A stretch of DNA of 64,000 nucleotides from Salipaludibacillus daqingensis (GTDB lineage: Bacteria > Bacillota > Bacilli > Bacillales > Salisediminibacteriaceae), in the NCBI RefSeq assembly GCF_029891575.1, contig NZ_JARZHF010000008.1, forward strand, positions 124,001 through 188,000, in the 5' to 3' direction. Shown here piece after piece: positions 7,822 to 35,610 of the stretch. The notes under the pieces are model-generated. The model saw nothing but the letters and a program-made list of their open reading frames with translations, was not told the origin of the DNA and did no database searches. The position numbers and the translations under genes are program-made. How positions within the stretch are numbered: position 1 is the stretch's first letter; each line of letters opens with the position of its first letter.

Positions 7822-9795
7822 ATGACGTTAGACGTAAACACTTCAAACACGGAAGCTTTCAAAAAAGCCTTTCATACGATGGAAGAAGCGTTCCCTTACG
7901 CAAAAAAAATGTATCAATCTGATGCATTACAGGCTGCTGCAAAAGTCATGGAAGACGTAGATGGAATGAAATTTCTGTATCAGTATGCTGATCGATTCGA
8001 TGCAGCGGGCTTGTTCGAAGGGGGACCTTGGGCGGAACCATCAAAGCTTGAACCTCGTCTCGTATCAGGTTCTTTAATGGCTAGCGGAATGACAAGCATT
8101 GTGGAAATTTTAAGTGAACTTCGCATGGTTTCCATAGCGAAAGGGAATCACGAACATGAAACGGTAACGAAAGAAAAGGCAAAAGATTTCTTAGATTCTG
8201 TAATGGCGTTAAATATCGATATTTTATTTCCTGAGGAAACAGAAGCAGCTAGAATCGAAGGAAAAGGGAAAGAAAAAAATCGTGCAGAAAAGCTCTTTCA
8301 TTTTTTAGCAGAGGAACTGTCCCTCACCTCTATTGCTACCACCCTCATTAAAGAGATCGATGGTCTTGTTGCCCAGCGACCGATCATGGTCAAACGGACC
8401 GTCTCGATGATTAAAGATGCCGAACAACTTCTCAACAATCCGATTAACGCTCAAGACAAAAAAGCGATTAAAAAATATGTTCAAGCCCTTTCTGGATCTG
8501 CAAAATTGTGTAAAGAGGTTAAGGAACCATGCGATTACAGAAAACGTTTAAAAGACGCGACCGATAAAGAGTTGAAAGAAGAAGCAAAAGCCTTTGCAAA
8601 ATCGATGCATGAAACAGGGCTTGTATCTGATCATCATGTCGTTCTCGTCCGTTACTTTAACCGGGAGAAAAAAGATCTACTACCTATTGCTCTCGGGTTA
8701 AGTAAAAAAGGAATCGCCCACCTTGATGAGCATTTTGATACAGTAAGTGGATTAATAAAGGTAGCGATTCATCCGCCGATGCGGCAGTCGTTATACGGTT
8801 TAGCACTCTTGTTAGAACGCGGTGTTTTATCATCTAATCCTGTTATTCCAGGACTACGCCGATTAATTGAGCTTGATTTACAACCAGATATTCGAAAATT
8901 ATTGTTAAACTCTATCAATCCTAATGAAGGTATCACCGCCAATGATATTCTCGTTGCCGGCGTTATCAGTGTGTTAGGACAACCACTTGGGATTGGTCAA
9001 GGTATGAACCCAACGTGTCAGACAGCCCGAGGCATCAGCCTTTGGTCTTTGCATGCTCCCGGTCACTTATTAGAGTTAATCCCTCGTGCCGCTCGAGATG
9101 GAGATGTGGATGTCATGTTTGAAGGGCAGATGATTCATTCCAAAAACCTACGGGAAGGGTTAGTGGATGATTTACATGAAGAATTAGATCCCGTTTCGTT
9201 AGTACTCGTTCCTCACATGGACCGCATATACGGTGAACTTGTTCGTCGAGCTGGCTTCCGCGGTGATGATGTTCATAAATGGGTAAATCCAGCCTTCTAT
9301 GGAAACTGGGTGAACAATGGATTCAGCTCTGCTCTTGATCCTATAACAGGATCTGTCACTGACTTTTCAGGATTTGTAAGACTGTTTTACTCGACGCACC
9401 ATCCTGAACTTAATGAAGGTCATGAGTTGATCTATCCAAACCCAGTTGGTATCTTCATTACTAACTCGTTTGGCCACTTGCTTGGGTTGCACGCTGTCTC
9501 TATTCAGCGAGTTGCTAAAGACCCAGATGGGGAGTATCGAATTTACATGTATAACCCGAACAACGATAGCTCACAAATATGGGGGCAAGGAATTGAACCG
9601 AGCGTTTCTGGACATGGTGAAATCGCTGGGGAATCATCGTTACCATTCCATCAATTTGTTGCGCGGTTGTATGCTTTTCATTACAACCCGTATGAGCAAG
9701 GAGACGCTTATGCTGTTGACAAAGAAGAAGTGGAAAAAGTCGAGAAATTGGCTCGTGAAAGCTGGGGCGAAAAATATACGTGGGTTGACCTTTAA
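7822..9795 (+). CDS. Large protein with papain-like catalytic pattern, unknown function
   Basis: A 657-residue soluble protein with no signal peptide and no family I can name. The N-terminal half is helical. In the C-terminal part, Q393 and C399 lie in GQGMNPTCQTARG with the same 6-residue spacing as papain Q19/C25. H557 lies in LLGLHAVSIQRV, and N578/N580 in YRIYMYNPNND. This is the Gln-Cys-His-Asn order and local context of papain-like hydrolases and acyltransferases. The gene follows an ATP-grasp ligase with a good AAGGGAGA site and a 38-bp gap, so the two probably act on the same amide- or ester-containing compound. That reaction is an inference. Confidence 0.75.
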   Translation: MTLDVNTSNTEAFKKAFHTMEEAFPYAKKMYQSDALQAAAKVMEDVDGMKFLYQYADRFDAAGLFEGGPWAEPSKLEPRLVSGSLMASGMTSIVEILSELRMVSIAKGNHEHETVTKEKAKDFLDSVMALNIDILFPEETEAARIEGKGKEKNRAEKLFHFLAEELSLTSIATTLIKEIDGLVAQRPIMVKRTVSMIKDAEQLLNNPINAQDKKAIKKYVQALSGSAKLCKEVKEPCDYRKRLKDATDKELKEEAKAFAKSMHETGLVSDHHVVLVRYFNREKKDLLPIALGLSKKGIAHLDEHFDTVSGLIKVAIHPPMRQSLYGLALLLERGVLSSNPVIPGLRRLIELDLQPDIRKLLLNSINPNEGITANDILVAGVISVLGQPLGIGQGMNPTCQTARGISLWSLHAPGHLLELIPRAARDGDVDVMFEGQMIHSKNLREGLVDDLHEELDPVSLVLVPHMDRIYGELVRRAGFRGDDVHKWVNPAFYGNWVNNGFSSALDPITGSVTDFSGFVRLFYSTHHPELNEGHELIYPNPVGIFITNSFGHLLGLHAVSIQRVAKDPDGEYRIYMYNPNNDSSQIWGQGIEPSVSGHGEIAGESSLPFHQFVARLYAFHYNPYEQGDAYAVDKEEVEKVEKLARESWGEKYTWVDL

Positions 9796-26662: not shown

Positions 26663-28009
26663 TCAATCCCCCTGTTTGACACGAAAGATAGCTTCGTCAA
26701 TATTCGCTCCGTAAACTTGCATACGCCGTAAGCATTTTGGAATCACACCTGTCGGTTCAAATTGTCCTTCATTTTCTCCAATTTCATTAATCCCAGTCCT
26801 TTTAAATTTAAATATCTCTTGGATATGAACATTGCCATCCAAATCAGTTACCACTTCTGAAATCGCAACAATCTTTCGTTGTCCATCTTGCAACCGCTCC
26901 CCTTGCAAAATGATATCTAATGCACCAACGATATATTCTCGTACTATTTTCGTTGGAAGATCCATTCCAGCCATTACAACCATCCCTTCTATCCGACGAA
27001 TCGCATCGGTTGGGGCGTTTGCATGAACAGTTGTCAGGGAACCTTCATGACCAGTATTCATCGCCTGCAACATATCAAAGGCTTCCGCGCCTCTAACCTC
27101 ACCGACGATGATTCGATCTGGTCTCATTCTTAGCGCGTTTCTTACTAGTTGACGGATACTGATTTCTCCACTCCCTTCAACATTTGCTGGACGAGATTCC
27201 ATGCCAACTACATTCGGTCGATCAATTTTCAACTCAGCAGAGTCTTCTATCGTTATGACACGTTCCCCCACTGGAATTGTTCCAGCTAATGCATTCAATA
27301 ATGTCGTTTTACCACTGCCTGTCCCACCGGATATTAAAATATTTAGTTTTGATTTGACCGCCGCATCTAAAAATTTCTTCATTTCTTCATTTAATGACTG
27401 ATATTCAATCAAATCACTCATCATAAAAGGTTCTTTCCGAAATTTACGAATCGATACTAATGGACCGTCAAGGCTGATTGGAGGGATCACTGCGTTAACA
27501 CGACTCCCATCCGGTAACCGTCCATCAACCATAGGAGAACTTTCATCAATTCGTCTCCCTATCGGCGCTACTACTCGATCAATAATGTGTCTGACATGCG
27601 CACCATCGCGAAATTTTAAACTTGTCAATTCCAATTTTCCTAGCTTCTCAATATAAACTTCATCGTGCCCATTAATTAAGATTTCCGTAATTGCCGGATC
27701 CGTCAGAAGAGGTTCTAATGGTCCAAATCCTACAGATTCATCGATTAATCTTATTAATAGTTCCTCTTTATCACGATGAGGGATGATGACCTTCTCCTCA
27801 CTCATAAACTGGCTAATGATTCTTTCAATTCGAAGCCGCATTTCACCTTTATCCATATTTGTTAGCTTTTCTAAATTGGTTTCATTAAGTAAGCGGGCTT
27901 TATAATGTTTACTCAGTTGATCAATATATGAGTTGTCATAGGAGGAGGAGTAAGACATTTTGTTTTCATTCTCTACTGCTCTAGTTGTTTTCTTTTGAAA
28001 TAAAGACAT
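26663..28009 (-). CDS. tadA: TadA/CpaF pilus assembly ATPase
   Basis: 448 residues of the VirB11-like secretion ATPase family. Walker [20 protein letters not shown], Asp box, Walker B ([34 protein letters not shown], including the His box) and [18 protein letters not shown] in the N-terminal domain. Hexameric motor that powers Flp pilus polymerisation (and retraction in bifunctional homologues). ATG behind AGGAG. Regular length. Confidence 0.96.
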
Positions 28010-28037
28010 TTTTTGGCTCCTCTCATGACCTTTATCC

Positions 28038-29213
28038 TTACTTTAGTTTTGATGACACCCATTTACGAACATCTTTCGCTACAAGTGGTATCTTTCTTTC
28101 ACGGACCTTTTGACGAAGAGGAACACCTTTATTTACTGCACCTTGTACGCCTTTCATATCTCTACGAATTTCTGTAGCGACAGGTAAGGGAATAAATTCT
28201 TGAAGATCCTTTGCATTCAACTCGTTATTTCGCTCTTTTTCATTAATGACTATTTGAATACGATCCGTTGTATCCATACCTAATCTATCAAAAAGGGCAT
28301 CGACATGTTGATAGACTCTAATTGACGGTGTATCTAGTTTCATCACATAATAAATCAAATCTGATTCCTCAAGAACAGCATAAGTTTTAGCATTCATTTC
28401 AGTTGGTAAATCAATGATTACAAAATCAAATATCCTTCGGCAAGACCGAATGAGTTGAGTAACATGTTCATCCAAAATACTTTCTGCTGCTTCTGCATCC
28501 TGAGGACTAAGTAGTAACTCTAGTTTGGATAACGGTTCTTTCTCACTCACATTCCTTATATGATTTTCATTAAGCTCGTTTATAACAGGTTTTAAATCGG
28601 CTAAAGACCGGTTACTTTCAATACCTAAAAAAGTCTCCACACCCCCGAATTGTAAATTTAAGTCTATTAGTAATACTTCGGCGGTCGATTCAAATTTTAA
28701 TGTCTGCGCAAAGGTAGAGGATAGTAAAGTTCTTCCTACTCCCCCTTTACCGCTATAAAACGAAATAACCTGTCCTCTTCCTCTCTTTAATGCCTTTCCA
28801 GATGTAGCAGCAGTTTCTTCCACAGACTCTTTTTGATTCTTCACGACTTGCTGTATCTTCTCAAATCGTTCGTTAAACTGGTGAAATTCATCAGGAAAGA
28901 CAAAAAAATCAGAGGCTCCAGCTCTTATGACATCCCTAAGCTGCAGAAAATTTTCTTCTTCCGTTACAAATAGAATGACAGGTGTACGAAAGCCCTGTGA
29001 TTCATTATTTATATATTGAATTAACTCTACTTCTGAACCATTGTTAGGAGCGACGAAAATAACAACATCAGGAGCTATTCTACCAATCTCTTTTTTTACT
29101 TCTTTTGATGAATTGATCTCAACATTGTCATTTGATTGTAACGTTTCTTGAATTATACGATTACGTATTTCCTCTTGATCACAGATTAATAGAATTTTAT
29201 TATCAACACTCAC
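28038..29213 (-). CDS. tadZ: TadZ/CpaE pilus localisation ATPase
   Basis: 391 residues: N-terminal receiver-like domain (KILLICDQEEIRNRII.., RAGASDFFVFP) without a clear phosphorylation site, then a ParA/MinD-like ATPase (VISFYSGKGGVGRTLLSSTFAQTL, LLIDLNLQFGGVETFLG, DFVIIDLPTEM). The deviant Walker A signature Lys is kept (SGK) but the P-loop Lys of GKT is Arg, so hydrolysis may be weak. Start set at GTG 29213, 9 nt after GGAGGGG; the longer frame to 29231 overlaps that site. Directs the Tad machine to its cellular position. Confidence 0.9.
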   Translation of the reverse strand: MSVDNKILLICDQEEIRNRIIQETLQSNDNVEINSSKEVKKEIGRIAPDVVIFVAPNNGSEVELIQYINNESQGFRTPVILFVTEEENFLQLRDVIRAGASDFFVFPDEFHQFNERFEKIQQVVKNQKESVEETAATSGKALKRGRGQVISFYSGKGGVGRTLLSSTFAQTLKFESTAEVLLIDLNLQFGGVETFLGIESNRSLADLKPVINELNENHIRNVSEKEPLSKLELLLSPQDAEAAESILDEHVTQLIRSCRRIFDFVIIDLPTEMNAKTYAVLEESDLIYYVMKLDTPSIRVYQHVDALFDRLGMDTTDRIQIVINEKERNNELNAKDLQEFIPLPVATEIRRDMKGVQGAVNKGVPLRQKVRERKIPLVAKDVRKWVSSKLK

Positions 29214-29234
29214 GAATGCATTCCCCTCCACTCT

Positions 29235-30080
29235 TTATTCATTGTCATTATTGTTATTCGATTCATTCTCATTTTCTTCGTTATTTGTTTCATCTTCATT
29301 GTTTTCTTCGTTCTCATTGGTTTCGCTGTTTGTTTCATTTTCGCTGTCTTCGTTATCGTTATTTTCATTTTCTTCTTCACTATCCTGACTTTCCTCATCT
29401 GTTTCTTGTTCTGGGTCACCATTTTCATGTGAATTTTCTTCTAAAGAATTATCTAGTGGACTAATCCCATCGGTCCCTACATTAGCCTTCAGTATTCGTA
29501 AACTACTTGCAAAGTTTTGCATATGGATAAGTTCTGACGCTGCATCCAAAGAAACCTCAACAGCAACTCCGCTAAAGGAGTTACCCTCTCTTGAAACCAT
29601 GGCTACTGGCACATCTTCCATAAATACTTCCGTCATACTTTCACCCTCAAACCCATGCGAAACAACGATGTCTATTCTATCCATAACTTCAAGTTCTTGA
29701 TCAAAATGGATTTTGTCCGATGAATACAAAGCAACGATTCGATTTCCATCTTCGGTTACATTAGAGTAATCTCTTAACATATTATGTGTAATCAAATTCC
29801 CCTCTGATAGTGGAACCACCGATACCTTCCCATCCAAGTGTTCTAATTCCGTAATATGACTCTCCGTCACAAAACGATTAGGAAGTTCCATCATTGTAAT
29901 ATGGTCTGATATAATTAATTCACGCGAAGATATATCTGTATTAGCAATATAAACTTCCGTCATTCCTCCAAGTTCTGACTGAAGATCCTGAACCTTATTA
30001 AGGATTAAAACTCCCGCAATTCCAGCAAAAATTATTGATAACGTTAAAAATATAAGTGCTCTTTTTTTCGACTCTAACAT
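29235..30080 (-). CDS. cpaB: CpaB/RcpC-like pilus assembly protein with acidic tail
   Basis: 281 residues: N-terminal membrane helix (KKRALIFLTLSIIFAGIAGVLILNKV), SAF domain (about 40-105; VYIANTDISSRELIISDHITMMELP, LSEGNLITHNMLRD) and the RcpC/CpaB domain (HFDQELEVMDRIDIVVSHGFEGESMTEVFMEDVPV). From about residue 212 the protein is a low-complexity tail of Glu, Asn, Asp and Ser (about 70 residues). In diderms CpaB interacts with the secretin; here there is no secretin, so the acidic tail may instead reach through or bind the wall. First gene of the 14-gene Tad operon. Confidence 0.88.
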   Translation of the reverse strand: MLESKKRALIFLTLSIIFAGIAGVLILNKVQDLQSELGGMTEVYIANTDISSRELIISDHITMMELPNRFVTESHITELEHLDGKVSVVPLSEGNLITHNMLRDYSNVTEDGNRIVALYSSDKIHFDQELEVMDRIDIVVSHGFEGESMTEVFMEDVPVAMVSREGNSFSGVAVEVSLDAASELIHMQNFASSLRILKANVGTDGISPLDNSLEENSHENGDPEQETDEESQDSEEENENNDNEDSENETNSETNENEENNEDETNNEENENESNNNNDNE

Positions 30081-30710
30081 CCCTGCTCCACTCTCTTTCT
30101 AATTAACAAAAAACTAATAGATTTATTTCTTAGTAAATTTTCCCTTGCCTCTTAAATCTTGTTACCTACTAGGTAATTCACTGATCTTTTTAACAATTCA
30201 ATTGAAATAGGTTTTAGTAATTTTAGTCTGATAGATTCAACTTTTTATCTATCAATCTATTTGTGTCTAATCAGTGAACACTACCCTTCTTTTACCACAA
30301 AGCAAAGGAGTTGCCAAATCCATCCAATTATTGAGTAGTATAATATAACTAATCCTATTAGACTAAAATGGGTGATTTTACCTCATTTTATTGATTATCT
30401 GTCTTTTTTAAATCAAAAGTCCTTAGTTTTACGTCTCAAATATTATATTTATGGAATAGTCAATGATACCAACTAGTAAATGATATCTAGTCAGCTAATG
30501 AAGCGTTTAAATTTGCGTTTGAATGAAAACGATAAAAAAACATCTATCGTAAGTCTTATTTGATTTACATAATTCGACAACCACATAAAATTTTGTCGAT
30601 ATAAGAATCATTTCCGTTGAAACCTAATTACTGAAAAATAGGTTCTAGCCTTCTATCCATCGTTAAAAACTTGAATGAAAGCCACGTTAAACATTTTATT
30701 TCATACAAAA
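30081..30710. other. 630-bp control region upstream of the Tad operon
   Basis: No gene is seen. It contains a perfect 15-bp palindrome TTACCTACTAGGTAA (30162-30176), an 8-bp dyad TGATAGAT / ATCTATCA spaced by 10 bp (30229-30254), and two Spo0A-box-like sequences (30573-30600, listed separately). AT-rich; several weak promoter-like hexamers but none convincing. Confidence 0.55.
30573..30600. promoter_or_regulatory. Possible Spo0A boxes upstream of Tad operon
   Basis: TTCGACAA (30573-30580, perfect complement of the 0A-box core TGTCGAA) and TTGTCGAT (30593-30600, one mismatch) in opposite orientation, 12 bp apart. Short motif, so chance occurrence is quite possible. Confidence 0.35.
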
Positions 30711-30746
30711 AAGACCCACACCCTTTTATTCAGTGGTGTAGGTCTT
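30711..30746 (-). terminator. Terminator overlapping 3' end of SelL-like gene
   Basis: Minus-strand AAGACCTACACC / GGTGTGGGTCTT stem; the left arm contains the last sense codons. Six T follow (complement of 30707-30712). Confidence 0.85.
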
Positions 30747-31289
30747 CGTCACTTGGTTTTTAATTTCATTAATAGAGGCGTGATCGTCTGGCATTTTATC
30801 AATATGTTTCCAGATCACCTTTCCATTTTCATTGAAAAACCATGTTCCTCCTTGAATATATACATCTTGTGTTTTCATGGATTTTTTTACGATGGCGTTC
30901 TGGCTTGCTTCTTTCGGAAGGAAATTTTTCACTTTTCCAGTAACAAAGGCAAAGGCAGCCATGGAAAGTAATTTCAGTTTGGGAGCGGTTTGATGCCCCA
31001 TCTCTCGGTATGCGTGACGCTTCGGATCACCGTAAAAAGGAAACGGATATGGCCCAAATGCATCGAGAAACTGGCTAACAAACGACCCTTTCGAAGGTGC
31101 AATCACGATAATTTGTACTTCTTCTTTTGTAATCTCATCTTCGTGCTCACGCAACTGCGCGAGATAATCTCGACATATCGGTCAACCGAGGTGTCGGACA
31201 AATACAACTAATGAGCGTTGATTTTCGATGAGCTGTTGTAATAATACTTCTTCTCCATCTGTTGACTCTAAATGGTAGGCTAGATTCAT
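30726..31289 (-). CDS. SelL-like/AhpC-TSA_2 redox protein with in-frame UGA (probable selenocysteine)
   Basis: A 187-codon frame from ATG 31289 (AAGGAG 8 nt upstream) to TAA 30726, interrupted only by TGA at 31182-31184 (codon 36). Around it the protein reads VVFVRHLG-U-PICRDYLAQL, the peroxiredoxin-like thioredoxin-fold motif where relatives have GCPxCR. UGA thus sits exactly at the first redox cysteine. Downstream reading stays in frame and family-like (IIVIAPSKGSFVSQFLDAFGPYPFPFYGDP, GGTWFFNENGKVIW). A hairpin of bSECIS geometry follows. Either a selenoprotein or, less likely, a nonsense-mutated gene; a conventional caller would give only 30726-31154. Confidence 0.75.
31146..31163 (-). promoter_or_regulatory. 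Bacterial SECIS-like hairpin
   Basis: Minus-strand CTCGCGC-AGTT-GCGTGAG: a 7-bp stem (one G-U pair) with a 4-nt loop having G at position 2 and U at position 3. The loop begins 26 nt after the UGA, within the 16-37 nt window described for bacterial SECIS elements. Confidence 0.6.
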
Positions 31290-31362
31290 TTCTCTCACTC
31301 CTTACCTGAATTCCAAGATATGACTAGCTTATACCATATAGGAAAGAATTGTAAAACAATTG

Positions 31363-31530
31363 TTATCGTTTCATTGATTTAGGAATCAGAAAAATGGCTA
31401 ATAAGGCAACGACAACATGAATGGCATGAGCAGCCAACGAAACGGAATAAAAAAAGCATCACAACAGCTGAAACCGCAATGATCCCTCCATTGATGACTC
31501 CCGCTCTGCAATACGCCGAAAAACGTTTTC
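31363..31530 (-). pseudogene. Remnant of a small membrane protein gene
   Basis: On the minus strand INGGIIAVSAVVMLF is followed, after a frameshift in an 8-T run, by SVSLAAHAIHVVVALLAIFLIPKSMKR and a stop. Both halves look like membrane helices, but there is no start or ribosome site. It fills the gap between the nmrA-like gene and the SelL-like gene. Family not identified. Confidence 0.4.
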
Positions 31531-31541
31531 GGTCCTCCAGT

Positions 31542-32426
31542 CTATTTGGCCTTCTTTTCCAATTCTACCAACGGTGACCACTTCGATTGATGATCGATAA
31601 CAAATTGCCTGAATGACGTTGGTTTTCTTTTTAGTAGTACCTCTAAATCATTCGTTACTTTCTTGGCATTGCCCATTTTCGTAATGGCGTAAAGCATCGT
31701 CATAACGTTGGCGAACTCTTTTTTTACTCCTAAAGCGATTTGTTCCTTTCTAAATGCGAGAAAACCTAGATCTCGATACGTAATTTGTCTTCCTAGTACT
31801 CTTGATAACGTGGAAGCCACTGTCTCATAAGTTATCGCATCTTCTCCTGTTAACGTATAAATGTTATTTACATGTTCGTCCGCGTCTTGTAAGCAAATTG
31901 CAGCCGCTTCTCCTATATCTCTCGTATCAATAAAGCTCGTTGTCGCTTTGCCCACAGGAACGGCTATTTCATCACGAAGGGCAATGTCGTCTCGATGCGT
32001 TGTGCTTAAATTTTGCATGAAAAAACTCGGTCGTAAAAACGTGTGTGGAATATCAAATTCTTCTATCATTTTCTCGATTTTTTTGTGAGGGGCAATCGGA
32101 TTCTTCTCCACTCCTAATAACGAGATAAAGACGAGATTTTTTATGTTCATTGCGCTTACCTTGTTGAGGAACGGTACCATATCGCGCTTGGGTTTTGCTA
32201 ACTGCGGCGGTCGAACGAGAAAGATACGATCCACCCCTATCAGCGCTTCATCAAACGTATTTTCATTTAAAAAATCAAACGGAACTTCTTCATGATGATC
32301 ACTGATTCGTGTTCTTTTTGATGCATGCCATGAGCCTGCAACTGTGTCCTCTCCTTTATTGACTAACTGTTCTACGACATGCCGACCGATATTACCAGTT
32401 GCGCCTGTAACGAATATTTTTCCCAT
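31542..32426 (-). CDS. NmrA-like NAD(P)-binding protein
   Basis: 294 residues; Rossmann opening KIFVTGATGNIGRHVVEQL, conserved RPSFFMQNL and DTRDIGEAAAICL of atypical short-chain dehydrogenases (NmrA/YtfG/AzoB-like). These bind NAD(P)H as redox sensors or quinone/azo reductases. The start at 32426 is behind GAGGAGG; the frame upstream to 32477 runs through the operator. It lies directly downstream of a marR gene and has its own copy of the putative MarR operator, so induction by an electrophile or quinone-like ligand is likely (inference). Confidence 0.88.
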   Translation of the reverse strand: MGKIFVTGATGNIGRHVVEQLVNKGEDTVAGSWHASKRTRISDHHEEVPFDFLNENTFDEALIGVDRIFLVRPPQLAKPKRDMVPFLNKVSAMNIKNLVFISLLGVEKNPIAPHKKIEKMIEEFDIPHTFLRPSFFMQNLSTTHRDDIALRDEIAVPVGKATTSFIDTRDIGEAAAICLQDADEHVNNIYTLTGEDAITYETVASTLSRVLGRQITYRDLGFLAFRKEQIALGVKKEFANVMTMLYAITKMGNAKKVTNDLEVLLKRKPTSFRQFVIDHQSKWSPLVELEKKAK

Positions 32427-35154: not shown

Positions 35155-35610
35155 TTGAGTCAAAGCAGTCATATTAAAGATCGTTTTTTATCACACCGGT
35201 TGATCACGAATGATTTGATCGGAAAAATCAAAACAGAACACTTCGACTATAAGCCAACACCTACCTCGATGTCAGCACACGAACTGGTTGTTCATATGTT
35301 AACGTCGTTTTACCATCTTGCATCTGCGGCCGCTAAACAACGACCAAAGACACTCCACGATAAGGACGATGATAAGAATTTACCATTGCTTGCCCAACGG
35401 TACACGGATGAATCGGTCAAACTCATTGAATCGTTATCAGAAGAAAGGCTCGATGAGTTTGTTGACCTTTCAGATTCGATGGGAATCAATGTTCCTGCTC
35501 GAACGTTGATAGATATGGCTATTGATCACGAAATTAATCATAAAGGCAATCTATTTGTGTATGTGCGCGAAATGGGCCATGAAAAGTTACCAATGTTTGT
35601 GAAAAAGTAA
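35155..35610 (+). CDS. DinB-family protein
   Basis: 151 residues forming the DinB four-helix bundle with the usual three metal-ligand positions (HELVVHMLTSFYH and DHEINHKG). DinB/YfiT-like proteins are metal-dependent thiol transferases or stress proteins. TTG start behind AAGGAGGGG. Stands between SASP genes and a repeat array. Confidence 0.85.
   Translation: MSQSSHIKDRFLSHRLITNDLIGKIKTEHFDYKPTPTSMSAHELVVHMLTSFYHLASAAAKQRPKTLHDKDDDKNLPLLAQRYTDESVKLIESLSEERLDEFVDLSDSMGINVPARTLIDMAIDHEINHKGNLFVYVREMGHEKLPMFVKK

Follow-up and report, generated by a model that had tools for sequence, protein, structure and literature searches.

The window analysed here, a 64,000-nucleotide stretch of the Salipaludibacillus daqingensis genome, carries on its minus strand a reading frame of 187 codons (30726..31289) that runs from an ATG at 31289 to a TAA and contains one internal stop, a TGA at codon 36 (31182..31184, minus strand). 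The TGA lies within the motif HLG-U-PIC, in which U denotes the predicted selenocysteine (Sec), and 151 codons remain in frame downstream of it. The sequence AAGGAG, recognized by eye as a ribosome-binding site, is positioned 8 bases upstream of the ATG (31298..31303, minus strand). The second residue of the UxxC motif, Cys39, is encoded by TGT (31173..31175, minus strand), and a SECIS-like hairpin with a 7-bp stem and an AGUU loop follows at 31146..31163 on the same strand. As read from the translation, Sec36 and Cys39 would be the sole selenol/thiol residues of the protein. A plain ORF caller returned just a 142-residue piece with a TTG start (30726-31154). The preliminary description of this DNA had put forward the frame as a gene with a good ribosome site that automatic annotation would shorten; its frame, coordinates, TGA position and downstream codon count were all borne out, as were the ribosome site and the truncation. 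The window also contains, at 26663-30080 on the minus strand, three genes unrelated to this one, which we take to resemble a Tad/Flp pilus cluster (CpaF-, CpaE/TadZ- and CpaB-like).

The full-length translation was compared with protein family models. It passed the Pfam cut-offs for Redoxin (PF08534, 50.5 bits against 26.6), AhpC-TSA_2 (PF13911, 47.9 bits against 27) and AhpC-TSA (43.4 bits). The best NCBIfam match was the SelL-related redox protein model NF040769, with 106.4 bits over residues 6-179, below the cut-off of 120, and each of the 25 aligned members matched this model with an E value of 0.001 or lower. Among 10 solved sequences, prostamide/prostaglandin F (PGF) synthase (PDB 9us9) came closest, with a match over profile positions 11-180 of 187 and an E value of 4.7e-10. 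The initial assignment as SelL/AhpC-TSA_2-like was therefore right in substance. These matches suggest a thioredoxin-like fold of the peroxiredoxin-like-2/AhpC-TSA_2 group, to which prostamide/PGF synthase belongs. Judging from its sequence, the protein is a predicted peroxiredoxin-like (AhpC-TSA_2) protein with a UxxC motif, distantly related to prostamide/PGF synthase.

We also compared substitutions on both sides of the TGA in close pairs of orthologues. After the TGA, pN was smaller than pS in all seven pairs (0.020 against 0.396 for L039/L043 and 0.175 against 0.735 for the window and L036, for example), indicating that selection acts on the read-through product. Before the TGA, where changes were few, the same was observed in six of the seven.

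Conservation of the TGA codon and distribution of Sec decoding

In a family sample of 35 genomes, 20 contained a strong match (E below 1e-40), each with a TGA inside. SelB was found above the cut-off in 29 of the 35, and all 20 carriers of the gene were among these 29. Six further weak rows of this sample corresponded to redoxin-like genes of other kinds, of which five have Cys and the sixth TGA. The last (L059, G022:C21:70447-70710) is a second, different redoxin-like gene with the motif UPNC, in a genome that also harbours the main gene.

The order sample comprised 397 genomes. Orthologues (E 1e-15 or better) were present in 70 of them and all 70 rows had the TGA; no Cys orthologue was found in this sample at this threshold. 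Eight rows contained a second TGA, and reading of all eight identified it as the terminator at the gene end. TGA was likewise found in the five named loci, from two Alkalibacillus, Alkalicoccus luteus, Alkalihalophilus pseudofirmus OF4 and A. marmarensis. When named loci, family sample and order sample were combined and duplicate records dropped, 80 distinct genomes were obtained, and the aligned codon was TGA in every one of them, one being a decayed copy. The decayed copy, one of the 70 of the order sample, is L125 (G206:C6:1604151-1605280), which has a stop at about residue 80 while SelB is still encoded in the genome; here the gene is disappearing although the Sec trait persists.

In a phylum sample, 17 of 398 genomes gave a match at E 1e-8, corresponding to 21 rows. 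TGA was present in 17 rows, two of which had already been counted as orthologues, and the four remaining, distant rows had Cys. The preliminary description had placed the TGA where relatives have Cys; this holds for distant relatives, whereas close relatives have UGA themselves. Among distant members from the phylum, two genomes (G780, L126/L141; G648, L127/L142) have paired adjacent Prx-like genes, each with a TGA; one gene has UxxG, and a 7-pair hairpin with an AGUU loop follows the TGA in all four.

The presence of the gene was related to that of SelB. In the order sample, SelB was detected in 179 of the 397 genomes and in 70 of the 70 that carry the gene (Fisher 6e-29, uncorrected for kinship); Bacillus subtilis, included as a control of the SelB survey, gave no SelB. 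Sec decoding is thus common, not rare, in this order, the Bacillales. The case had originally been considered notable on the grounds that most Bacillus lack Sec decoding; across the order, the count is higher than would be expected from what is usually assumed for Bacillus.

In terms of gene context, no conserved neighbour was found in flanks of about 1.5-3 kb, the largest cluster of similar neighbours covering 11 of 47 loci. As no neighbouring gene is conserved across the family, locus context does not indicate a substrate. A plasmid search gave no match.

A SECIS-like hairpin downstream of the TGA codon

The hairpin consists of the arms CTCGCGC (31163-31157) and GCGTGAG (31152-31146), enclosing the loop AGTT (31156-31153). 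The loop begins 26 nt past the A of the UGA and has G at its position 2. Stem length, loop, spacing and G position had been given in the preliminary description, and on re-reading the coordinates all proved correct. The folding energy of the 50-nt stretch was no better than that of its own shuffles (z -0.62; 48 of 200 were as good), and the structural case therefore rests on comparison, not energy.

In an alignment of 25 sequences, 24 of them distinct, 97.6% of the stem cells were paired and the covariation score was 0.245 against 0.159 when shuffled; neither this pairing nor this score was reached in any of 500 shuffles. No slid register came near the true one in pairing or covariation score. 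Weaker measures gave less separation: the number of cells changed on both sides was reached by 5 of the 500 shuffles and that of further pair types by 23, while two pairs changed on both sides, a number that 40 shuffles attained and that the +3 slide exceeds with three. Across the 80 orthologue rows, 553 of 560 pair cells were paired, with all seven pairs in 73 rows. The loop was AGTT in 78 rows and AGGT in two, and the distinct hairpins numbered just 18.

In order to separate RNA from protein constraint, codon bias was examined in 55 codon columns using the 19 rows left after removal of six near-duplicates from the 25. The five most biased columns were L46, R47, E48, L43 and Q45, all inside the hairpin, and L46 was TTG in 18 of 18 rows. 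Codon 44, the sixth hairpin codon, varies between Ala and Thr and lay outside the 55 columns. A hairpin downstream of the UGA, the criterion for a SECIS, is supported by this comparative evidence, energy alone being not significant.

With Rfam, the region 30400-31600 yielded two matches (E up to 1), which scored well under their respective gathering thresholds. When a covariance model of the family hairpin was run against the genome itself, the gene studied here scored 75.4 bits and the next two of the 24 matches listed scored 18.8 and 17.6 bits. The CAGTTGC core was absent around both runner-up matches, and the model accordingly does not serve to find SECIS elements in general. When both strands of the window were scanned for a TGA together with an AGTT loop on a stem of 6 bp or more, two sites emerged, the present one and another at 35427 on the plus strand.

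Sec decoding machinery and other selenoprotein genes

The genome, a 4.58-Mb draft in 27 contigs, was searched for the Sec decoding machinery. A tRNA-Sec was detected above the Rfam cut-off and by ARAGORN, with the anticodon TCA, together with SelB (364 bits), SelA (525 bits) and SelD (406 bits). All four of selA, selB, selC and selD, which the preliminary description had singled out for a search, are therefore present. They form a cluster on contig 12 in which a SelW-like Rdx protein with a CxxU motif is also encoded. The gene for the latter (L034:8521-8769, minus strand) lies between selA and selD and has its TGA at 8733; SelD (L034:8850-9959) itself contains an in-frame TGA. The gene after SelD within the cluster (L034:9980-10903) may encode a LysR-type regulator.

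A stem with an AGUUU loop is found downstream of each TGA in the SelD and SelW-like genes. Two FdhA genes (L151, C1:126935-128953; L152, C13:53106-55121) were also identified, each with a TGA at the Sec site followed by HAP. By eye their apical loops differ, GGUCU in one and AGUUU in the other. Minimum-energy folds of the 60 nt past the TGA of SelD and of the FdhA gene with the AGUUU loop did not show the AGUUU hairpin. Counting the gene in the window, two FdhA, SelD and the SelW-like gene, the genome contains at least five selenoprotein genes. With this machinery in the genome and TGA in 80 of 80 distinct orthologues, the original proposal of a candidate selenoprotein is upheld.

Alternative explanations of the TGA codon

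We weighed UGA recoding against three other explanations. The gene might encode an ordinary Cys protein, with the TGA due to a nonsense mutation or to a sequencing error, an idea favoured by the Cys found at this site in distant relatives of the same fold. However, the same TGA occurs in 80 of 80 orthologues from independent genomes, which excludes a sequencing error, including one at 31184 as the preliminary description had contemplated, and is not the pattern of Cys in close relatives with TGA in a single strain that it had also considered. The pN/pS relation in the codons past the TGA (seven of seven pairs) and the covariation of the hairpin also argue against this explanation, whose probability we consider negligible. 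Splitting of the gene would give two products, a short peptide ending at the UGA and a 142-residue protein initiated at TTG 31154, as the mechanical ORF 30726-31154 would have it. But this TTG codes for Leu46 within the hairpin (78 of 80 orthologues have TTG here and two have GTG), no ribosome site is visible by eye at the TTG, the Redoxin and SelL-related profiles span the UGA, and the codons before the TGA are themselves under apparent constraint (six of seven pairs, on few changes). Two products are extremely unlikely. Split genes were thus rejected on comparative evidence, along with nonsense mutation and sequencing error.

Read-through of the UGA with no involvement of selenium, for instance by a near-cognate tRNA-Trp giving a Trp form, deserves mention as UGA leakage is known in Bacillus. 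In the order sample, however, the gene occurs only alongside SelB (70 of 70), the hairpin with SECIS geometry is conserved, and other genes in the genome display a TGA with a downstream hairpin. A Trp at the redox site of a thioredoxin-like fold would presumably also be useless. We regard this reading as very improbable. Recoding of the UGA to Sec, taken together with the identity as a redox protein, is by contrast strongly favoured by the sequence comparisons. As the stop codon appears to be decoded as Sec both in this bacterium and in its relatives, the gene product is almost certainly a full-length redox protein.

The partner residue Cys39 and a proposed mechanism

The codon at +3 from the TGA was TGC in 37, TGT in 34 and TAT in 9 of the 80 orthologues, giving Cys in 71 and Tyr in nine. 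The change from Cys39 to Tyr occurred in two lineages, and two trees, one constructed without the window row and one with the window row and the +3 residue masked, both require two separate changes; these were quick searches with long-branch warnings, the OF4 clade being long-branched. In seven of the nine Tyr proteins, the region between the beginning of the match and the stop codon is devoid of Cys.

On the basis of these results, the following sequence of events can be proposed. The ribosome would reach the UGA at codon 36, where SelB with Sec-tRNA-Sec would bind the AGUU-loop hairpin just 3' of the UGA and Sec would be inserted. Translation would then continue to the TAA, giving a product of 187 residues that is probably cytosolic, a leader not being seen by eye. 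The Sec36 selenolate may attack an oxidized substrate, either a peroxide or a disulfide, and subsequently pair with Cys39 as a selenenyl sulfide, which a thioredoxin-type or bacillithiol-linked reductant would reopen. In the Tyr39 forms, Sec would be resolved by an outside thiol, for which we assume bacillithiol to be a candidate. We consider the chemistry of Sec36 and Cys39 somewhat likely to take this course; chemistry, substrate and reductant are all deduced.

A variant that is not exclusive of this scheme is a one-Sec enzyme in which Cys39 is dispensable and Sec is resolved by an external thiol, for example bacillithiol. The loss of Cys39 to Tyr at least twice in the quick trees and the seven orthologues without Cys in the matched stretch are in its favour. 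On the other hand, Cys39 has been kept in 71 of the 80 orthologues, the present protein included, and is therefore probably useful where present; we judge the variant rather unlikely. In addition, we tentatively raise the possibility of a Bacillales-wide family locked to Sec, having no Cys orthologue and relying on Sec alone where Cys39 is gone, as a one-Sec enzyme whose recycling would depend on bacillithiol or some other external thiol; we consider this less likely than not.

Discussion

Given that the ORF caller truncates the gene and that 70 of the 397 sampled genomes carry an orthologue, a redox enzyme fairly common in this order may be overlooked in many annotations. The Cys form was not found in the order sample, yet Cys39, the partner residue, has been lost on at least two occasions, so that the contribution of selenium is directly testable. 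Specialists may take particular note of the apparent restriction to Sec and of the disappearance of the partner Cys. The 80 natural hairpins with their near-fixed AGUU loop also constitute a data set for signal recognition by SelB in this group.

Selenoproteins of related kinds have been recorded. A 2026 review (PMC13188914) includes Prx-like (UxxC/UxxU), Redoxin (UxxC) and peroxiredoxin-like (UxxS) selenoproteins, and the same three kinds appear in the available portion of PMC9312934. In the main text of the review, the terms Bacill, Firmicutes, Bacillota, NF040769 and UxxY are not mentioned. A survey from 2006 (PMC1794560, as far as the available text extends) put the number of Cys-to-Sec events in the Prx-like family at three, which implies that Cys forms exist in that family. 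It also counted three selenoproteins of three families in Bacillales, and Sec use in this order is therefore not new. Among the matches listed from the open-licence literature, judged by title and start of the abstract, a description of the subfamily was not found, which is weak evidence of absence.

The protein is close to the SelL-related proteins in that NF040769 is its best NCBIfam model, although its score stays under 120. SelL proper has a UxxU motif with a diselenide, whereas the orthologues described here have UxxC or UxxY, and UxxU in none of the 80 rows. As a peroxiredoxin-like protein with UxxC, it resembles the Prx-like thiol:disulfide oxidoreductases (UxxC, UxxU) and Redoxin (UxxC) entered in Table 1 of PMC13188914. 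The Prx-like family, however, has Cys forms according to the available text of PMC1794560, whereas no Cys orthologue was found here in the order sample at E 1e-15. With prostamide/PGF synthase (9us9), it shares a colinear profile match in which the GCxxC of the synthase is aligned to the Sec site. The synthase nevertheless has Cys instead of Sec and is distant in sequence, and its substrate is not transferable. As for the RNA element, the bacterial SECIS is a stem-loop shortly past the UGA with a G within the first two loop positions. The hairpin found here likewise comes soon after the UGA and has G among its first two loop bases, but is distinguished by a compact 7-bp stem with an AGUU tetraloop (78 of 80), whereas one FdhA of the same genome has GGUCU.
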